Below, one piece after another: positions 27,056 through 33,904 of a stretch of 44,645 nucleotides of DNA; positions within the stretch are counted from its first letter, which is position 1, and each line of letters begins with the position of its first letter. Source of the DNA: Prescottella defluvii (GTDB taxonomy: Bacteria; Actinomycetota; Actinomycetes; Mycobacteriales; Mycobacteriaceae); NCBI RefSeq assembly GCF_000738775.1, contig NZ_JPOC01000019.1:1-44645 (forward strand), given 5' to 3'. Made by a program: the position numbers and the translations under genes. The notes under the pieces were generated by a model, which worked only from the letters and a program-made list of their open reading frames with translations, was not told the DNA's origin and ran no database searches.

Positions 27056-27155
27056 GGGAACCTCCCAGTTCGGATGTGCAGATCCGGTCTGTCGACACGC
27101 ACTCGCGGGTCGACACAGAACGGTACCGAACCCGCGGTCACCGGCGCGGCACCGA

Positions 27156-28013
27156 TCAGGTCATCGGCAGCCAGACCGGCTCCGCCGGGATTCGCTCCAG
27201 CACCCCACCGGCGAAGACGTCGTACAGCGGGAGCTGCTCGGTGTGCACGTACCCGATGTGGCAGTCGCACACGTCCAGCGGGCAGGGCCGTGGTCGCAGC
27301 GCGTCGCGGAAGGAGCCGTCGTACAGGTTGCCCAGTTCCTCGGGGACGAAATGACAGCGCCGGACCGTGCCGTCGCCGTCGACGGACACCACGGTGTCAC
27401 CGGTGCGGCACGCCCGCCCCCGCGTCCGGTGCGGATGCCGGCTGTACTCGAACAGCGGGTCGAGCGTCGTCCACTCGGCTGCATCGGCGTCGGTGTACTG
27501 GTGCCCCTCGGCGGCGTTGACCCACAGATACACCGGATCGGGCAGCTCGGCGCGCAACCGGCGAGCTGCGACGAGATGCTCGGGCAGTCCCACGACGCCG
27601 ACGCTGAAGCGCACACCGAGCGCGGTCAGTTCGGCGGTCTTGGTGAGGAACCGATCGTGCGGGGTCTCGCCGGGGTGGTACGTGCACCACAACGCGACGG
27701 TGTCGCGCTCGGCGTCGGCGAGCCACCCGGTGCGGCAGCTGAGGTTGGTCTGGATCGCCACCCGTCGCACGTGCGGTAGCCGGGACAACTCCACCAGGGC
27801 CCGCCGGTACCAGGAGCGGACCAGGCCCTCCCCCCACGGTGTGAACAGGATCGACAGTTCCTCGTCCTGGCCCGCCACCCACGCGCAGAAGCGTTCCAGC
27901 GCGGCGCGGTCGGCGCGCAACTGTTCCGGGGTGTCCCGACGTTTCGCGAACGGGCAGTACGGGCAGTCGTAGTCGCACGACGCCAGCGGTCCGCGGTACA
28001 GGATGGTCAGCAC
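27156..28013 (-). CDS. Radical SAM protein, STM4011 family
   Basis: A 285-residue radical SAM enzyme. The [4Fe-4S] motif is CDYDCPYC (Cys13, Cys17, Cys20). A C-terminal cluster of Cys202, Cys220, Cys244, Cys249 and Cys251 (ACRTGD; RRCHFVPEELGNLYDG; CPLDVCDC) resembles a SPASM/Twitch auxiliary-cluster domain, as in enzymes that modify peptides or proteins. It starts at GTG 2 bases after the STM4012-type gene stop, with GAGGG upstream. It is the last gene of the five-gene operon. Family function is unknown; the SPASM-like tail points to a macromolecular substrate (inferred). Confidence 0.9.
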   Translation of the reverse strand: MLTILYRGPLASCDYDCPYCPFAKRRDTPEQLRADRAALERFCAWVAGQDEELSILFTPWGEGLVRSWYRRALVELSRLPHVRRVAIQTNLSCRTGWLADAERDTVALWCTYHPGETPHDRFLTKTAELTALGVRFSVGVVGLPEHLVAARRLRAELPDPVYLWVNAAEGHQYTDADAAEWTTLDPLFEYSRHPHRTRGRACRTGDTVVSVDGDGTVRRCHFVPEELGNLYDGSFRDALRPRPCPLDVCDCHIGYVHTEQLPLYDVFAGGVLERIPAEPVWLPMT

Positions 28014-28015
28014 CG

Positions 28016-29380
28016 TCAACGGCCCTCGTACTCGGCCATCGCGGCGCGCACCTGCGGCGAGAACAGATCCGGTCCCAGCGCGTCGGAGTAGGCCAGGCCC
28101 GATTCGGTCAGCCGCAGCCGGCCACCGTCGGCGACGAGCCACCCGCGCCCGGACCACCGGTCCAGCTCGGTACCGAAGTGCTCGTGCGGGTCGGCGCCGA
28201 ATCGGGACCGATAGTCCGCCAGCGGCATTCCCTCGGCCTGCAGCACGGACTGCAGCAGGTGCCGGCGTCGGGACTCGTCCTCGGTCATCGCGTGTCCCAC
28301 GACGGCGCGGCGGAAGTCGTCGACGGTGCCCGCGACGTAGTCGTCGATGATGGCGCGCACCTCCCGCGCGTCGACCGCGTAGTCGAAGGAGTAGTGCAGG
28401 GAACGGGTGTACGACCTTGCGCCGCAACCGAGTCCGATCATGCCGTCGGTCTGGCACGCGTAGTCGTTCGGACCGTGATCGGGTGCGTCGGCGCGCCGGA
28501 ACATCCGCATCGACTCCTGCACGTAGCCCGCCGCGATCAGGTGGTCGCGTCCGCGGCGATAGAGGTCGAGCCGGAGCGCGTCCCAGTCCGGGTCCGGCCC
28601 GCCGCCGCGTCGGGCCAGGCCCGTCAGCGGCCGCACGTACAGCGGGTACAGGTACAGCTCCTCCGGCCGCCAGGCCAGCGCGGCGTCGAGGGAGGCGGCC
28701 CAGGACTGCGGTGTCTGGCCGTCGATTCCGTAGATCAGATCGATGTTGAGGACGTCGATCGCGGCGTCCCGGACGCGCTGCAGGGCGGCCTCGACGTCTG
28801 CGCGACGCTGCGGCCGGACCGCGGCCCGGGCCTCGGTGTCGTCGAAGCTCTGCACACCGAGACTGAGCCGGGTGATTCCGCGTTCGGCGAGGACCGCGAG
28901 CCGGTCGGCGGTGGCCGTCGCCGGCGACGCCTCCACCGACAGCGGGATCGCCCGCAGGTCGGCGCCCATGCCCTCGGCGATGTCGCACAGCCGGTCCAGT
29001 TCCGACGCGGTCAGGTAGGTGGGGGTCCCGCCGCCGAAGGCCGCCGTCGCGAACTCCGCCGACGGGGCCAGCGCCTCCCGCACCGCCTCGGACTGCCGCT
29101 CGAGGGCGTCGAGGTAGCGGGTGGTGAGCTCGTCCGGCGCGCCGACCCGGGTGAACAGATTGCAGAAGCCGCAACGCACCTCGCAGAACGGCACGTGGAG
29201 ATACAGCGACAGCGCGTCCTGGGGTTCGTCCGCCCACAGTTCGGTCAGCGCCGGGCGCGGGTCCAGCGTCCGGTACGCGGTCTTGTGCGGATACGCGTAC
29301 ACATAGTTCTGGTACGGCGCAACGTAATCCGCGGTGACGGTATCCGGCGGCACCGGCAGGGGCAGGTCGACGGTGGTCAT
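28016..29380 (-). CDS. Radical SAM protein, STM4012 family (HemW-like)
   Basis: A 454-residue radical SAM enzyme. The Fe-S motif is CEVRCGFC (Cys66, Cys70, Cys73) in LYLHVPFC, as in HemN/HemW. FGGGTPTYL and SLGVQSFDD are also HemW-like; LIYGIDGQTP is the matching third motif. The C-terminal winged-helix-like domain contains SDALGPDLFSP. It is not a second HemW by context. The ATG at 29380 overlaps the TGA of the hydrolase gene (ATGA). HemW-like proteins may be methyltransferases, heme carriers or oxygen-independent decarboxylases, so the reaction is open. Confidence 0.9.
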   Translation of the reverse strand: MTTVDLPLPVPPDTVTADYVAPYQNYVYAYPHKTAYRTLDPRPALTELWADEPQDALSLYLHVPFCEVRCGFCNLFTRVGAPDELTTRYLDALERQSEAVREALAPSAEFATAAFGGGTPTYLTASELDRLCDIAEGMGADLRAIPLSVEASPATATADRLAVLAERGITRLSLGVQSFDDTEARAAVRPQRRADVEAALQRVRDAAIDVLNIDLIYGIDGQTPQSWAASLDAALAWRPEELYLYPLYVRPLTGLARRGGGPDPDWDALRLDLYRRGRDHLIAAGYVQESMRMFRRADAPDHGPNDYACQTDGMIGLGCGARSYTRSLHYSFDYAVDAREVRAIIDDYVAGTVDDFRRAVVGHAMTEDESRRRHLLQSVLQAEGMPLADYRSRFGADPHEHFGTELDRWSGRGWLVADGGRLRLTESGLAYSDALGPDLFSPQVRAAMAEYEGR

Positions 29381-30201
29381 CTCGGTCCCTCGAGGAAGAA
29401 GTGGGCGTACGGCACCGTCCACACCAGGGGGTGGCCCAGCCGGTGGCCGGTGTAGCCGTCCTCGCCGTAGGTGGTGCCGTGGTCGGAACAGACGATCGCG
29501 AAACACCGTCGCCGGCTCGACACGGCGTCGAACAGACGTCCGATGTGCCGGTCCACGTACTCCAGCGCCGCTGCGTGCGTCGCCCGGGTGTCGCCGTCGT
29601 CCGCGGTGGCACCGGCGGTGAAGAACCAGTTCGGTTGGTGCAGTGCGGAAACGTTGACGAACAGGAACAGTCGCCGGTCGGAGGGAAGCCGGTCCACCAC
29701 CCCGGCCGCCACGTCCACCTGCGCCTCGAACGAGGTCGGCGACGTCACCCCCAGTTCGGGTGACCAGTGCGCCTCGTCGAACATCCCGGGCAGCACCGAT
29801 CCCAGCGCGCCCTGGCGGTTGAAGAAGCCGACGCCGCCGATGCATGCCGTGTGATAACCGGCGGAGGCGAGGCCCGCAACGAGATTGGACTCCGCGAACA
29901 CGAAAGTTCCGTCCGCGGTGGACTCGCTCCCGGCGAAGTCGGCCGCGAACAGCCGCGGGTGCGGTCCCTGCCCGACCGGGGTGGGCAGGAATCCCGCGAA
30001 CATCGCCTGGTGCGACGCGTACGTGAAGCTGCCGGGAGCATGGCGCTGCTCCCACTGCCCGCCGGGCAGGTGCTTCGCGAGGTTCGGGATCCGCCCGGCG
30101 GCCGCGAGCTCGCATGCCACGTCGTAGCGCAGGGTGTCGAGTGTGATCAGCAGGATGTCGTCGGATCCGACGACGGTGGTCATGTCAGGCTGCTGCAGCA
30201 T
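29377..30201 (-). CDS. Sulfatase/alkaline-phosphatase-fold hydrolase, STM4013/SEN3800 family
   Basis: A 274-residue protein with the metal-dependent sulfatase/phosphatase layout: ILLITLDTLRYDVA near the N-terminus supplies the first metal Asp (Asp22), and SDHGTTYGEDGYTGH near residue 240 supplies the Asp-His pair. No CxPxR formylglycine motif is present, so it is more likely a phosphoesterase-type member than a classic sulfatase. It is shorter than most of the superfamily. The ATG at 30201 follows AAGGA and overlaps the ATP-grasp gene by 17 bases; ATG 30183 is an alternative. It lacks a signal peptide, so it acts in the cytoplasm. Confidence 0.85.
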   Translation of the reverse strand: MLQQPDMTTVVGSDDILLITLDTLRYDVACELAAAGRIPNLAKHLPGGQWEQRHAPGSFTYASHQAMFAGFLPTPVGQGPHPRLFAADFAGSESTADGTFVFAESNLVAGLASAGYHTACIGGVGFFNRQGALGSVLPGMFDEAHWSPELGVTSPTSFEAQVDVAAGVVDRLPSDRRLFLFVNVSALHQPNWFFTAGATADDGDTRATHAAALEYVDRHIGRLFDAVSSRRRCFAIVCSDHGTTYGEDGYTGHRLGHPLVWTVPYAHFFLEGPR

Positions 30202-31279
30202 CTGCCCATCCTTCGATCGCGGCCAGTTGCGCCGCGTAGGTGTCGAGATCGTCGGCGCGGCCCGGGAGCCCGTTCAGGCCCGGGAGCAGATCGCCGAAGG
30301 CGTTCACCTCGCCGACGGCCGCACCGCGCCAGTCCGCGGCGGGCAGCAGGTCCACCCCGACACACAGGGTGCGGGGGAAGCAGGCGGCGGCCCGTTCCGC
30401 GACGGCCAGCGCGTTCTCCCAGCCGTACCCCGCGGAATCGAATGCGGCCCGCGCGGTGTCCAGGTCGCCGCGCTGCCCGCCGAGGTGCAGGTTGGTCATG
30501 GGATGAGTGCTGGTGCGCAGCACCGCGTGGGTCGCCCGCCCGGCGACCACCACGATCCGCAGATCGACGGCGCGGCCGCCAATCGACGGCTTCGGCAACC
30601 AGGCCTCGATGTGCAGGCGTTCCCCGGCCAGCGCGTCGATCAGGGCTCCCACCTCCGCGTCGCCGGTTCGTCGGCGCACCCGCAGTGAGTTGTAGATCCC
30701 GTCCGCGGCGATCTCCACGCTGCTGCGGGCCTGGACCCGGCCACCGGAGGCGGTCTCGACCGCGACCACCCCGGCCGCGGACGATCCGTGTGCGGGCTTG
30801 ACGAAGAACCGCCGCAGCCCGGCCGCTTCGGCCAGATCGCGCACCTCCGACCAGTTCCGCGGCACCGGCGCATCGTTGCCCGAGGTTGGCGACATCGGCA
30901 CCGGCACACCACTGTTCGCGAGGACCGCGTGGCATCGGCGCTTGTCGAACAACACCGCCAGATCGGCCGGGTCCGTCAGTCGACGGCCGCCGTGCAGCGT
31001 GCCGACCGCGGTGAGCAGCGACGCGTACCCGCGCGGGCCGTCGGCGATCCGGGTCGGATCGCCGGGGCCGCGCAGCATCGCGTCCACGGCGGGGTTCTCG
31101 CCGGGCGAGTCGAGGCGCACCCACTCGTCGGCGTCGAAGCGCGCTCCACGCGCGGTGAGCACCTCGCTCCAGGACACCACCCGCGGGGTGGGCAGGCCGG
31201 AGCGGGCCGCGGCGTCCAACAGCATTGTCACGCGGCGGTTCTCCGGATTGCCCACGACCGCCAGTCGGGGACGGATCAT
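30185..31279 (-). CDS. ATP-grasp-like protein, STM4014 family
   Basis: A 364-residue protein. The order fits ATP-grasp: a pre-ATP-grasp domain (about 1-110), FVKPAHGSSAAGV (about 159-171) as the ATP-binding Lys and glycine-rich loop, then LRIVVVAG, and near the C-terminus VGVDLL and VGEVNAFGDLLPG (about 318-345), the acidic/Asn metal-binding end. The family ligates a carboxylate to an amine or thiol through an acyl phosphate. The ATG overlaps the LRR gene's TGA by 4 bases. With two radical SAM enzymes and an LRR protein next door, it could ligate an amino acid or peptide to a protein (inferred). Confidence 0.85.
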   Translation of the reverse strand: MIRPRLAVVGNPENRRVTMLLDAAARSGLPTPRVVSWSEVLTARGARFDADEWVRLDSPGENPAVDAMLRGPGDPTRIADGPRGYASLLTAVGTLHGGRRLTDPADLAVLFDKRRCHAVLANSGVPVPMSPTSGNDAPVPRNWSEVRDLAEAAGLRRFFVKPAHGSSAAGVVAVETASGGRVQARSSVEIAADGIYNSLRVRRRTGDAEVGALIDALAGERLHIEAWLPKPSIGGRAVDLRIVVVAGRATHAVLRTSTHPMTNLHLGGQRGDLDTARAAFDSAGYGWENALAVAERAAACFPRTLCVGVDLLPAADWRGAAVGEVNAFGDLLPGLNGLPGRADDLDTYAAQLAAIEGWADAAAA

Positions 31280-32232
31280 TCGCTGACAGCGACCGACCGG
31301 TAGATCGTCCCGTCGTACTCGTCCTCGTCGGCGTCCTCACCGTCGAGATTCAGTTGCACGCCGGACGGCTCGAGTGCCGTCCGCAGGCGCTCCCGCATGC
31401 CGTCGCTGAGGTAGTTGTGGTGCAGGTCCAGCGACTCCAGGTGGGTGAGCGACTGCCCCGCGAGCAGCGCCTCGGCACCGGTGTCGAGCAGGACGCCCTT
31501 CGACAGGTCCAGGACACGCAGCTGCGGGACGACCGCTGCGGCCGCGACGGCGGCTGCGATCTCGTCCTGGTACTCGCTGTTCGAGAGCGCGAGGCGCGTC
31601 AACCGCGGGAGCGTCTTCCCGGAGAGGATCGGCGCGAGATCCTCCACCGTCGAATCGGCGCCGTAGTTCTCGTCGCCCAGCCACAGCTCGAGGTCGGTCA
31701 GGGCCGGCAGATCCGACGCGGCCACGGCCCGGACCACGTCGACGGACAGGCCGCCCGTCTCGATCACCAGGTGGCGCAGGTTCTCGTGCCGGACCGGGGT
31801 CAGAGTCAGGCCGGTGCCACCGCGCACCCCCAGGCGCTCGAGTCGCGGAAACGCGGTCAGCAGCGGAGTGATGTTCGACTGGGTGATCCACGAGATCTCG
31901 CAGTCCTCGAAGGTCATGTCCCCGAGGAACAGGGCCCGCAATGCGGGCAGTTCACCGGCCGCCGCGACGAGCGCCGCCACCACGTCGGCGGAACTCTCCT
32001 CGTACGGGTCGGACCAGCCGCCGACGACGATCGCCTGCACGCTCGACGGATCGACCGAGGCGAGGAACTTGGCCAACGCCTCCGGCCACTCCATCGGCGC
32101 CTCGTACGTGGGAACGGTGATCCGCCAGGCGACCGGACCCTGCCCGGGCACCGCGGGGGCCGCGTCGGTATCGATGGGGAACTCCACAACCGGGAGGCCG
32201 TGGAACTCCTTCTGCAGATCATTGATGGTCAC
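31276..32232 (-). CDS. Leucine-rich-repeat protein, STM4015 family
   Basis: A 318-residue protein, first gene of the operon. After a variable N-terminus with WRITVPTYEAPMEWPEAL, residues about 95-300 hold irregular LRR units (LPALRALFLGD; FPRLERLGVRGG; LPALTDLELWLGD; LPRLTRLALSN; VPQLRVLDLSKG; LTHLESLDLHHN). The C-terminal tail is acidic (DGEDADEDEYDGT) and ends in YRSVAVSE. No signal peptide or anchor is seen, so it is cytoplasmic. It starts at GTG with AGGAG upstream. LRRs bind proteins; it may be the scaffold, the specificity factor, or the modified substrate with its tail as target. These are inferences; the family is uncharacterised. Confidence 0.88.
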   Translation of the reverse strand: MTINDLQKEFHGLPVVEFPIDTDAAPAVPGQGPVAWRITVPTYEAPMEWPEALAKFLASVDPSSVQAIVVGGWSDPYEESSADVVAALVAAAGELPALRALFLGDMTFEDCEISWITQSNITPLLTAFPRLERLGVRGGTGLTLTPVRHENLRHLVIETGGLSVDVVRAVAASDLPALTDLELWLGDENYGADSTVEDLAPILSGKTLPRLTRLALSNSEYQDEIAAAVAAAAVVPQLRVLDLSKGVLLDTGAEALLAGQSLTHLESLDLHHNYLSDGMRERLRTALEPSGVQLNLDGEDADEDEYDGTIYRSVAVSE

Positions 32233-32315
32233 CGTGGCACTCCTGCTGTCGGGTGGACTCGATGGGCATTATGCCCGGGTTCGGCGGTTGGTCCGGCTGA
32301 GGTTATCTCCCCGGT

Positions 32316-32333
32316 CCGACACGACCGTGTCGG
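32316..32333. promoter_or_regulatory. Palindrome in the gap between the STM4015-type operon and the DNA polymerase gene
   Basis: CCGACAC (32316-32322) and GTGTCGG (32327-32333) form a perfect 7-base inverted repeat with a 4-base spacer, in the 124-base divergent gap. It could be an operator for either side. CACACT 10 bases before the polymerase GTG could be its -10 element for a leaderless start. Confidence 0.4.
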
Positions 32334-32356
32334 TGCCGTCCCGCACACTGGTCTGC

Positions 32357-33904
32357 GTGAGAACGGTGCTGGTACCTGACGGCGACGGTGCCACGCTGAT
32401 CCGGACCGACGAGTCCGGCCGGGCACTGGGCGCGCCGCTGCACGTGCCGGATGTGGCCGCCGCGGTCCGCGAGATCGAGGCCACCGAGCGGCCCCGTTGG
32501 GCGTGGGAGGACACCACGCGGGTGTATCCACCGCTGCTGGCGGCAGGGGTGCGGGTGCAGCGGTGCCACGACCTGACGCTCACCGGTGCGCTGCTCGAGA
32601 CCCGCGCGGGCCGGTACGTCCCCGTGGCAGAGACCCCGGTCGACGACCGGCTGGGCCTGTTCGACGTCGTGCCCTGGACCGCGCCGGACGTCGTCGTCGA
32701 GCGGCACCGGCGTCAGATCGAGACGGTCGGGGACGATCCGCGGCTGCGACTGCTGGTCGCCGCCGAGTCCGCGGGCGGGCTCACGGCGGCGGAGATGGGC
32801 TTCGACGGCCTCCCGTTCTCGGCGGCTGCGCACCGCACGCTGCTCGAGAACGCACTCGGGCCGCGGGTCCCGGACGACATGCTGCCGGACCGCCTGCGCG
32901 CCGTCGCCGACGACGTGAGTGCGGCGTTCGGGCGTCAAGTCAATCCGGCGTCGCAGCCGGAGGTGGTCGCGGCGTTCGCACGCGAGGGCATCGAACTGTC
33001 CTCCACCCGCGCGTATCTGCTGCGGGAGATCGACCACCCGGCGGTGGAGCCGTTGCTGCGCTACCGCGACCTGGCCAAGTTGCACAGCACCAACGGCTGG
33101 ACATGGCTGGACGCGTGGGTCCGCGGCGACCGCTTCCGACCGGTGTACGTGCCCGGCGGTGTGGTGTCGGGACGGTGGGCCAGCCGCGGCGGAGGCGCAC
33201 TGCAGATCCCGAAGGCACTGCGCTCCAGCGTGATCGCGGATGCGGGTCACACCTTCGTGATCGCCGACGCCGGTCAACTCGAGCCCCGGATACTCGCGGC
33301 GATGTCGGGGGATCCGCGGATGATGGCCGCCGCCGGCGCCGACGACCTGTACTCGCCCGTCGCGGCGGAGGCGTTCGGTGGGGACCGGGCGACGGCGAAG
33401 GTTGCGATCCTCGGCGTCCTCTACGGAGCCACCGCCGGCGACGCCCGCGCACTACTCGGGTTGCTGCGCAAGCGTTTTCCCGTCGCAGTGCAGTTCGTGG
33501 AGGACGCCGCCCGAGCCGGTGAACGCGGCGAGGTGGTCCGGTCCTGGCTCGGACGCGCGTGTCCCCCACCGGACGACGCGTGGTGGTCCGACGGCGACGC
33601 CCACGCCCGCGGCCGATTCACCCGCAACTTCGTCGTGCAGGCCACGGCCTCGGAGTGGGCACTGTGCCTGCTCGCAGACCTGCGTCGCCGCCTGGCCGCC
33701 GACCCCGGCGACGGTGAACTCGTGTTCTTCCAGCACGACGAGGTGGTGGTCCACAGCAGGCGCCCGGACGCGGCGGCCGCGCACGTCGTCGCGGCGGCCG
33801 AGTCGGCGACGCGACTGCTGTTCGGCGATACGCCCGTACGGTTTCCGATGGAGGTCGAGATCAGGGATTGCTACGCGGAACCGGCACCCTCCGACGCCGG
33901 ATAA
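32357..33904 (+). CDS. Bifunctional 3'-5' exonuclease/DNA polymerase-type protein (family A, actinobacterial)
   Basis: A 515-residue protein. The C-terminal half is a family A polymerase: motif A DAGQLEPRI (304-312) in place of the usual DYSQIELR, motif B RATAKVAILGVLYG (344-357) with Arg, Lys and Tyr-Gly kept, motif C QHDEV (459-463). The N-terminal 200 residues occupy the exonuclease position but show no clear DEDD acidic set. It lacks a 5' nuclease domain. GTG 32357 has no ribosome site and may be leaderless; the open frame further upstream is antisense to the LRR gene. A repair role or a role tied to the divergent operon are both possible. Confidence 0.85.
   Translation: MRTVLVPDGDGATLIRTDESGRALGAPLHVPDVAAAVREIEATERPRWAWEDTTRVYPPLLAAGVRVQRCHDLTLTGALLETRAGRYVPVAETPVDDRLGLFDVVPWTAPDVVVERHRRQIETVGDDPRLRLLVAAESAGGLTAAEMGFDGLPFSAAAHRTLLENALGPRVPDDMLPDRLRAVADDVSAAFGRQVNPASQPEVVAAFAREGIELSSTRAYLLREIDHPAVEPLLRYRDLAKLHSTNGWTWLDAWVRGDRFRPVYVPGGVVSGRWASRGGGALQIPKALRSSVIADAGHTFVIADAGQLEPRILAAMSGDPRMMAAAGADDLYSPVAAEAFGGDRATAKVAILGVLYGATAGDARALLGLLRKRFPVAVQFVEDAARAGERGEVVRSWLGRACPPPDDAWWSDGDAHARGRFTRNFVVQATASEWALCLLADLRRRLAADPGDGELVFFQHDEVVVHSRRPDAAAAHVVAAAESATRLLFGDTPVRFPMEVEIRDCYAEPAPSDAG

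Follow-up and report, generated by a model that had tools for sequence, protein, structure and literature searches.

An invariant C-terminal glutamate on the leucine-rich repeat protein of the STM4011-STM4015 gene block of Prescottella defluvii suggests a protein-tethered modification system

LysX, ArgX, and RimK are ligases that add amino acids to the C-terminal glutamate (Glu) of a protein, RimK acting on ribosomal protein S6, and the eukaryotic tubulin tyrosine ligase likewise extends an acidic tail at its C-terminal Glu by an amino acid, with no radical S-adenosylmethionine (SAM) steps. In this context, we analyzed 44,645 nucleotides of P. defluvii (NCBI RefSeq assembly GCF_000738775.1, contig NZ_JPOC01000019.1, positions 1 to 44,645 of the forward strand; the whole of this stretch is called the window), which carry a block of five genes of the STM4011-STM4015 families, encoding a leucine-rich repeat (LRR) protein, an ATP-grasp enzyme, a hydrolase, and two radical SAM enzymes. 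What is new here is the invariant C-terminal Glu of the LRR tail. On balance, we lean toward the reading that the ATP-grasp enzyme STM4014 charges this terminal Glu, and that the two radical SAM enzymes and a phosphoesterase-type hydrolase with a Thr nucleophile remodel the tail, the whole forming a protein-tethered modification system.

The closest described parallel lies in amino acid carrier proteins. In passages of one paper on the LysW carrier, LysX and ArgX are described as attaching an amino acid to LysW through the gamma-carboxyl of its C-terminal Glu, and the E54A form of the carrier as leading to auxotrophy (PMC10433800). The present block resembles that system in the class of its ATP-grasp ligase fold, with other ATP-grasps close behind LysX in the comparison, and in an acceptor protein with an invariant last Glu on an acidic tail, as those passages describe it (PMC10433800). 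However, the carrier here is an LRR solenoid rather than the small Zn-binding LysW, its tail reads RSVAVSE as opposed to the EDWGE end given there for LysW, and the ligase lacks GSWGR (PMC10433800); moreover, in place of genes of the LysZ/LysY/LysJ/LysK type, which it lacks, the block has two radical SAM enzymes and a hydrolase of the phosphoesterase type. With the RimK-S6 pair the block shares an ATP-grasp ligase predicted to work at a protein C-terminus, RimK with RpsF being among the top PDB matches, whereas the RimK score is far under its cut-off, the LRR substrate is a dedicated one, and further enzymes follow. The graspetide ligase PsnB likewise combines the ATP-grasp fold with a genetically linked protein substrate, but here there is neither a short precursor with a leader and conserved ring partners nor a transporter. 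Finally, the five NCBIfam families STM4011-STM4015 are the families of these very genes, and PDB 2ra8 is an STM4015-type protein; both were found without a function, as names and one uncharacterized structure.

The five genes lie on the minus strand at 27156-32232, overlapping or one base apart, in the order LRR, ATP-grasp, hydrolase, STM4012, STM4011, and all five window proteins (5/5) pass the curated NCBIfam cut-offs of their families by far. Consequently, two claims of an earlier note, made on the same DNA from its letters alone, are confirmed, namely that these genes form a five-gene minus-strand operon and that they match the STM4015-STM4011 families.

The LRR protein (31276..32232, minus strand; 318 aa, GTG start) scored 384.6 bits against NF038076 (cut-off 275), and a ribosome-binding-like AGGAG stretch can be read in the sequence 5' of its start (32233..32260, minus strand). 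Its AlphaFold2 model has a mean predicted local distance difference test (pLDDT) value of 88.8, with averages of 52 for residues 301-310 and 45 for residues 311-318. This tail consists of an acidic linker (about residues 298-311; 31300..31341, minus strand), of low pLDDT and of varying length among relatives, and of the motif R-[YF]-x-A-V-[AGS]-E, which in the window is R-S-V-A-V-S-E (codons and stop at 31276..31299, minus strand, a DNA pattern match), its terminal Glu being the proposed acceptor. Glu was the last residue in 130/131 distinct LRR tails, and the lone exception (L084) is an open reading frame (ORF) running out of frame, at a locus where another ORF ends in RYVAVDE. Counted from the end, Arg at -6 (124/131), Ala at -3 (114/131), and Val at -2 (115/131) are also conserved, with an acidic stretch of variable length before them, and no conserved Ser, Thr, or Lys was found in the last 25 positions. 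Left out of this count were duplicates (L003, L010, and L012), L009, L011, the frame-broken copy L027, and the pattern loci L107-L121; its threshold further dropped seven LRR-like ORFs, six of them ending in Glu and one, probably spurious (46.9 bits), in Arg.

The same residue closes the protein across distant bacteria. Terminal Glu was present in 7/7 aligned LRR proteins from five phyla despite divergence elsewhere; the E. coli protein ends in NPMFTE, a frameshifted E. coli copy in HAMYTE, and a Calothrix protein in DRYCSVAE, and thus terminal Glu spans six phyla. The Calothrix gene (L122:2014-3288, motif RYCSVAE) lies on a plasmid, in an 11-kb stretch of which no other block gene was matched. 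The nearest solved relative of the window LRR is PDB 2ra8, from Bacteroides fragilis, whose alignment reaches MITE and is followed by eight residues, which are probably a tag. A Bacteroides LRR (L023:5528-6601) carries an N-terminal WGR domain, which the window LRR does not have. Among the enzymes, terminal Glu occurred in 0/90 distinct tails of the ATP-grasp enzyme, 1/87 of the hydrolase, 0/89 of STM4012 (mostly Lys or Arg), and 2/90 of STM4011. When the DNA pattern of the tail was searched in 24 genomes, 15 matches were obtained, three ending in TGG, which is no stop, and 12 with a true stop; the latter fell in 11/12 LRR-bearing genomes and 0/12 others, while a reversed control pattern matched once. 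We rejected the idea that the tail is a tag shared by other proteins, all 12 true-stop matches being LRR genes.

Copy number sets the LRR gene apart within the block. We compared 79 actinobacterial loci (L028-L106), which are the best 80 of 458 encoding a relative, minus L027, excluded as frame-broken. LRR genes numbered two to five in 24 loci, one in 52, and none by the thresholds in three, of which L034 and L100 are short and L066 failed the coverage rule yet ends in Glu. The enzymes were single-copy, STM4011 being found in 79 loci, the hydrolase in 78, STM4012 in 77, and the ATP-grasp enzyme in 72, and none passes twice; a looser threshold gave two overlapping STM4012 pieces in L040, and L084 has two ATP-grasp pieces listed. 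Two Deinococcus plasmids also carry two LRR genes. Co-resident LRR copies had a median body identity of 58% (42-72%, 45 pairs), with a median of five of the last seven residues in common. Outside the block, 10 of 13 LRR genes in STM4011-bearing Streptomyces retain Glu. In three Streptomyces genomes with an LRR over its cut-off and STM4011 and STM4014 not over theirs (G376, G417, and G441), Glu was kept in 0/3; G441 has an STM4011 remnant and G417 retains a stand-alone STM4013. Glu is thus dispensable for the LRR fold, its loss having occurred in all three LRR proteins of genomes where STM4011 and STM4014 do not reach their cut-offs. The 16 LRR loci of this contrast were hand-picked and are not a random sample. 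Another Streptomyces genome, G416, has a decayed block whose LRR ORF ends early in the linker, the last residue being Glu by chance; this LRR was under the cut-offs and was left out of the counts.

The predicted partner of the tail is the STM4014-family ATP-grasp enzyme (30185..31279, minus strand), whose start overlaps the LRR stop in an ATGA and which scored 397.5 bits against NF038074 (cut-off 175). Its model reached a mean pLDDT of 91.4, and the best PDB match in Foldseek was LysX 3vpd (E 1.5e-13; target template modeling (TM) score 0.66). Further top matches were DcsG, RimK with RpsF, ArgX with LysW, RimK, and LysX/ArgX with LysW-gamma-AAA, with target-normalized TM of 0.64-0.75 across the top group. 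This ranking, which depends on a predicted model, favors a LysX/ArgX/RimK-like ligase in a supportive way, without deciding the matter. The best other NCBIfam family was RimK-like (E 1.1e-6), at 28.2 bits below its cut-off of 143.4. STM4014 and LysX have in common the stretch D-[LI]-R ... R-x-S ... T-N ... G-G, and Lys113, Lys161, Glu225, Lys230, Asp239, Arg241, Arg255, and Asn263 were invariant in 90/90 STM4014 sequences.

The remaining enzymes would act after the ligase. The STM4013-family hydrolase (29377..30183, minus strand; NF038075, 416.7 bits, cut-off 250) has its ATG one base past the ATP-grasp stop, with an alternative ATG at 30201 in the ORF list, and matched PF00884 of the alkaline-phosphatase/sulfatase superfamily at 45.8 bits (cut-off 25). 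Asp22, Asp27, Thr60, Asp240, His241, His253, and His257 (P0003 numbering) were invariant in 89/89 sequences, with Thr60, placed by eye from the alignment, standing where formylglycine sulfatases have their Cys. A formylglycine sulfatase was rejected, with Thr60 in 89/89 and no Cys or Ser, in agreement with the sulfatase fold without a formylglycine motif that had been proposed for this gene. In this superfamily, a Thr nucleophile is characteristic of phosphodiesterases and phosphotransferases. In one Streptomyces genome, a stand-alone STM4013 (334 bits; L151:6362-9312) lies beside MoaA-like radical SAM, dTMP-kinase-like, and phosphohexomutase-domain-like genes, which may form a further radical SAM pathway that uses phosphorylated intermediates.

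STM4012, a HemN-like radical SAM protein with a HemN_C domain (28016..29380, minus strand; ATGA overlap; NF006067, 641.8 bits, cut-off 380), retained C66, C70, and C73 in 86/86 sequences. The STM4011-family radical SAM protein (27156..28019, minus strand; NF038073, 414.1 bits, cut-off 200) starts at a TTG overlapping the preceding stop or at a GTG at 28013, and retained C15, C19, C22, and five further Cys (C204, C222, C246, C251, and C253) in 90/90. The Cys-rich tail that the earlier note had called SPASM-like is therefore real, although Pfam SPASM (16.5 bits, cut-off 21.5) stayed under its cut-off, and Radical_SAM (14.8 against 29.5) did as well. In Salmonella and E. coli, a haloacid dehalogenase (HAD)-type phosphatase gene overlaps the end of STM4011 (L024:8840-9574 and L149:7839-8537), the E. 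coli one being nearest to pyridoxal phosphatase, under cut-off (215.5 bits against 274), and in Bacteroides the two are fused (L023:7980-9545), with STM4011 at 334 bits over residues 12-291 followed by a Cof/HAD-IIB match of 70 bits, under its cut-off. A phosphorylated intermediate is suggested by this HAD phosphatase, linked or fused to STM4011, together with the phosphoesterase-type STM4013.

The data establish the genes and how well they are conserved, the tail, the pattern of LRR copy numbers, the limits of the insertion, and a predicted fold for the ATP-grasp enzyme; from these we infer the following chemical steps, the identity of the amine, and the retention of the product on the LRR protein. 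STM4015 would be carrier and specificity domain in one, its flexible acidic tail displaying the C-terminal Glu; STM4014 would activate this Glu and couple to it an amino compound, most probably an amino acid, in the manner of LysX/ArgX with LysW and of RimK with S6. STM4012 and STM4011 would then rework the attached group or the adjoining R-[YF]-x-A-V-x residues, STM4013 would take off or transfer a phosphate ester (sulfate being less likely), and the LRR solenoid would bring the finished tail to a partner, with the extra LRR genes, of diverged solenoids and the same tail, serving several partners. An attached product is favored because the block holds no recognizable peptidase or exporter. 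A bolder version, which we put forward only tentatively and consider rather doubtful, is a new protein-tethered radical chemistry in which a LysX/RimK-type ligase lengthens the tail at its C-terminal Glu, the two radical SAM enzymes convert this addition into a permanently attached prosthetic group or warhead, and one enzyme set arms interchangeable LRR targeting domains.

The assignment of the LRR protein as substrate and the ATP-grasp enzyme as ligase, already present in the earlier note, has gained specific support from the invariant Glu, the LysX/ArgX/RimK-like fold, the multicopy LRR genes, and the loss of Glu without the enzymes; the modification itself is still a prediction, and several observations weigh against it. 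The second PDB match, DcsG, is a small-molecule ligase, and PsnB, Ddl, and PPIP5K come next, at TM of about 0.52-0.63 and with E values no more than about three orders of magnitude away. The only Pfam family over its cut-off in STM4014 was a sugar-transfer-associated ATP-grasp (31.8 against 31.4 bits), the sequence similarity of STM4014 to LysX in a profile search was weak (E 0.03), and the GSWGR motif that LysX/ArgX use to recognize LysW is absent from the STM4014 sequence. An accessory small protein beside many blocks ends in Asp in 61/61 distinct tails; an invariant C-terminus alone is therefore no proof of modification. Furthermore, three divergent extra LRR proteins in block-bearing genomes (G382, G427, and G387) have no terminal Glu, and the contrast between genomes with and without enzymes depends on three no-enzyme genomes.

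Other readings account for part of these data. The match to DcsG, which acts on a small molecule, would suit a tail that serves for docking only: it would hold the LRR protein on the enzymes, or bring the enzymes to a target, and the product of STM4014 and the radical SAM enzymes would be a free small molecule. Motifs with a terminal carboxylate can act as docking signals, and LRR proteins outside the block also keep the tail. Nevertheless, a single reactive terminal residue kept over six phyla while its neighbors drift, next to a LysX/ArgX/RimK-like ligase, makes docking improbable in our judgment. We give a similarly low chance to a strict LysW-type carrier, where the LRR tail would be a temporary handle for the assembly of a free small molecule, which an enzyme encoded elsewhere would then release: the acceptor type and ligase fold are those of LysW/LysX, and the HAD phosphatase in enterics and Bacteroides suits a phosphorylated metabolite, but the block has no peptidase of the LysK kind, and a large LRR domain, in several diverged genes per enzyme set, would be odd for a mere handle. 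More remote still is a scheme akin to ribosomally synthesized and post-translationally modified peptides (RiPPs), with the LRR as a very large leader and the tail as a core that is cross-linked by the ATP-grasp enzyme in a graspetide-like manner, modified by radical SAM enzymes, and then released. PsnB is among the PDB matches, and SPASM-type radical SAM enzymes are described as common in RiPPs in parts of one paper (PMC8939145); against this, conservation is confined to a short hydrophobic-basic end that closes in Glu and offers no conserved Ser/Thr/Lys ring partners, and the block has no protease or exporter. A charged and remodeled tail that stays on the LRR protein hence remains our preferred reading.

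Compared with six genomes of the same genus (G002, G004, G006, G009, G010, and G012), the block is an insertion here: those six show an empty site, in which a DUF808 gene adjoins a DNA-polymerase-A-like gene, the two genes that flank the block in the window. The insertion holds these five genes and measures ~5.2 kb, its widest extent being 27079..32326, with flank matches that stop at 27078-27148 and restart at 32285-32327; at the six empty sites these matches range from overlapping by 17 bases to lying 116 bases apart. The DUF808 flank was searched in 11 genomes, with a full match in the own genome and these six and none in full in the other four. Two of the empty-site genomes (G002 and G004) carry their own block at another place. 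The block has a G+C content of 0.71, compared with 0.68 for the remainder of the window, and the adjoining gene at 31814-33904 (plus strand) gave a partial-length match to the DNA polymerase A family (75.7 bits). Within the genus, an LRR over the cut-off was found in 5/14 genomes, the own one included, and split in one more; in the sample of the phylum, 6/296 genomes bear it. A housekeeping operon was rejected in view of the empty sites and this patchy occurrence. As for known defense systems, PADLOC gave only two weak matches, PDC-M51A (25.7 bits) and a CARF model (11.6 bits).

Beyond this genus, the same five-gene order is annotated in Streptomyces, Methylobacterium, three Deinococcus, Paenibacillus, Salmonella, and E. 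coli, so that complete blocks are present in four phyla, with a broken copy in a fifth (Bacteroides), where a deletion on a plasmid removed most of the hydrolase and most of STM4012. In a second E. coli record of the same order, the LRR is annotated as frameshifted. All five families lay on one strand and in the same order in 75/79 actinobacterial loci, and the four exceptions are two short contigs (L034 and L100) and two loci that miss a score threshold (L062 and L084). Among 150 Streptomyces genomes, the LRR was over its cut-off in 70 and STM4011 in 69, with both in 67, only the LRR in three, only STM4011 in two, and neither in 78. The conservation of the genes as a block, as claimed in the earlier note, thus holds, and its own counter-case, that they do not co-occur elsewhere, failed; a self-contained system is supported by this joint occurrence and by the insertion against an empty site in six genomes. 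In E. coli, 154/5426 complete genomes contain a region that covers 80% or more of a Salmonella query running from the LRR gene to STM4012. Two Salmonella records were located in the phage collection, and no STM4011 relative was found in the viral contigs searched.

Broken copies were seen at several loci (L023:7600-7980, L027, L084, L145, and L150), comprising the Bacteroides deletion, frame-broken LRR genes in P. defluvii, S. altiplanensis, and E. coli, and a decayed Streptomyces block. Symbiotic-type plasmids of Rhizobium tropici and Cupriavidus taiwanensis carry genes annotated as STM4012 without the rest of the block, paired with a class I SAM-dependent methyltransferase (L025:7944-10261 and L026:7893-10228). 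A DUF6745 protein and a protein of ~100 aa without a Pfam family lie beside the block, in differing orientations, in Streptomyces, Methylobacterium, and Deinococcus (L019:3418-5040, L020:2316-3641, L021:8903-10224, L124:12903-14200, and L125:13887-15196), and 55 of the 56 Streptomyces genomes with DUF6745 above 350 bits, a threshold set by us, also have STM4011. As core parts both were rejected for the window, with no DUF6745 match in the own genome or 15 relatives; the same search does give matches in Streptomyces. Clustering of the other neighbors produced groups in at most 27/79 loci, and no further part could be linked to the block.

In the open-licence literature, searched by gene and family name, no function was found for STM4011-STM4015, which agrees with the earlier description of these families as lacking one: in the parts of PMC3844500 and PMC2784778 that carry the STM40xx names, one name appears once each, in a table and with no function. 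No paper combining radical SAM, LRR, ATP-grasp, and a carrier was found there either, and the portions of two ATP-grasp papers covered by a term search gave no mention of LRR (PMC4431377 and PMC8939145).

In brief, this block spans Salmonella, E. coli (154/5426 complete genomes), and about half of the 150 Streptomyces sampled, and its function becomes testable because the invariant C-terminal Glu points to a residue and an enzyme from which to start. If the proposed charging of this Glu is true, radical SAM chemistry would be linked with what is known of ATP-grasp ligases working at protein C-termini, and genes spread from Salmonella to Streptomyces would gain a testable function.

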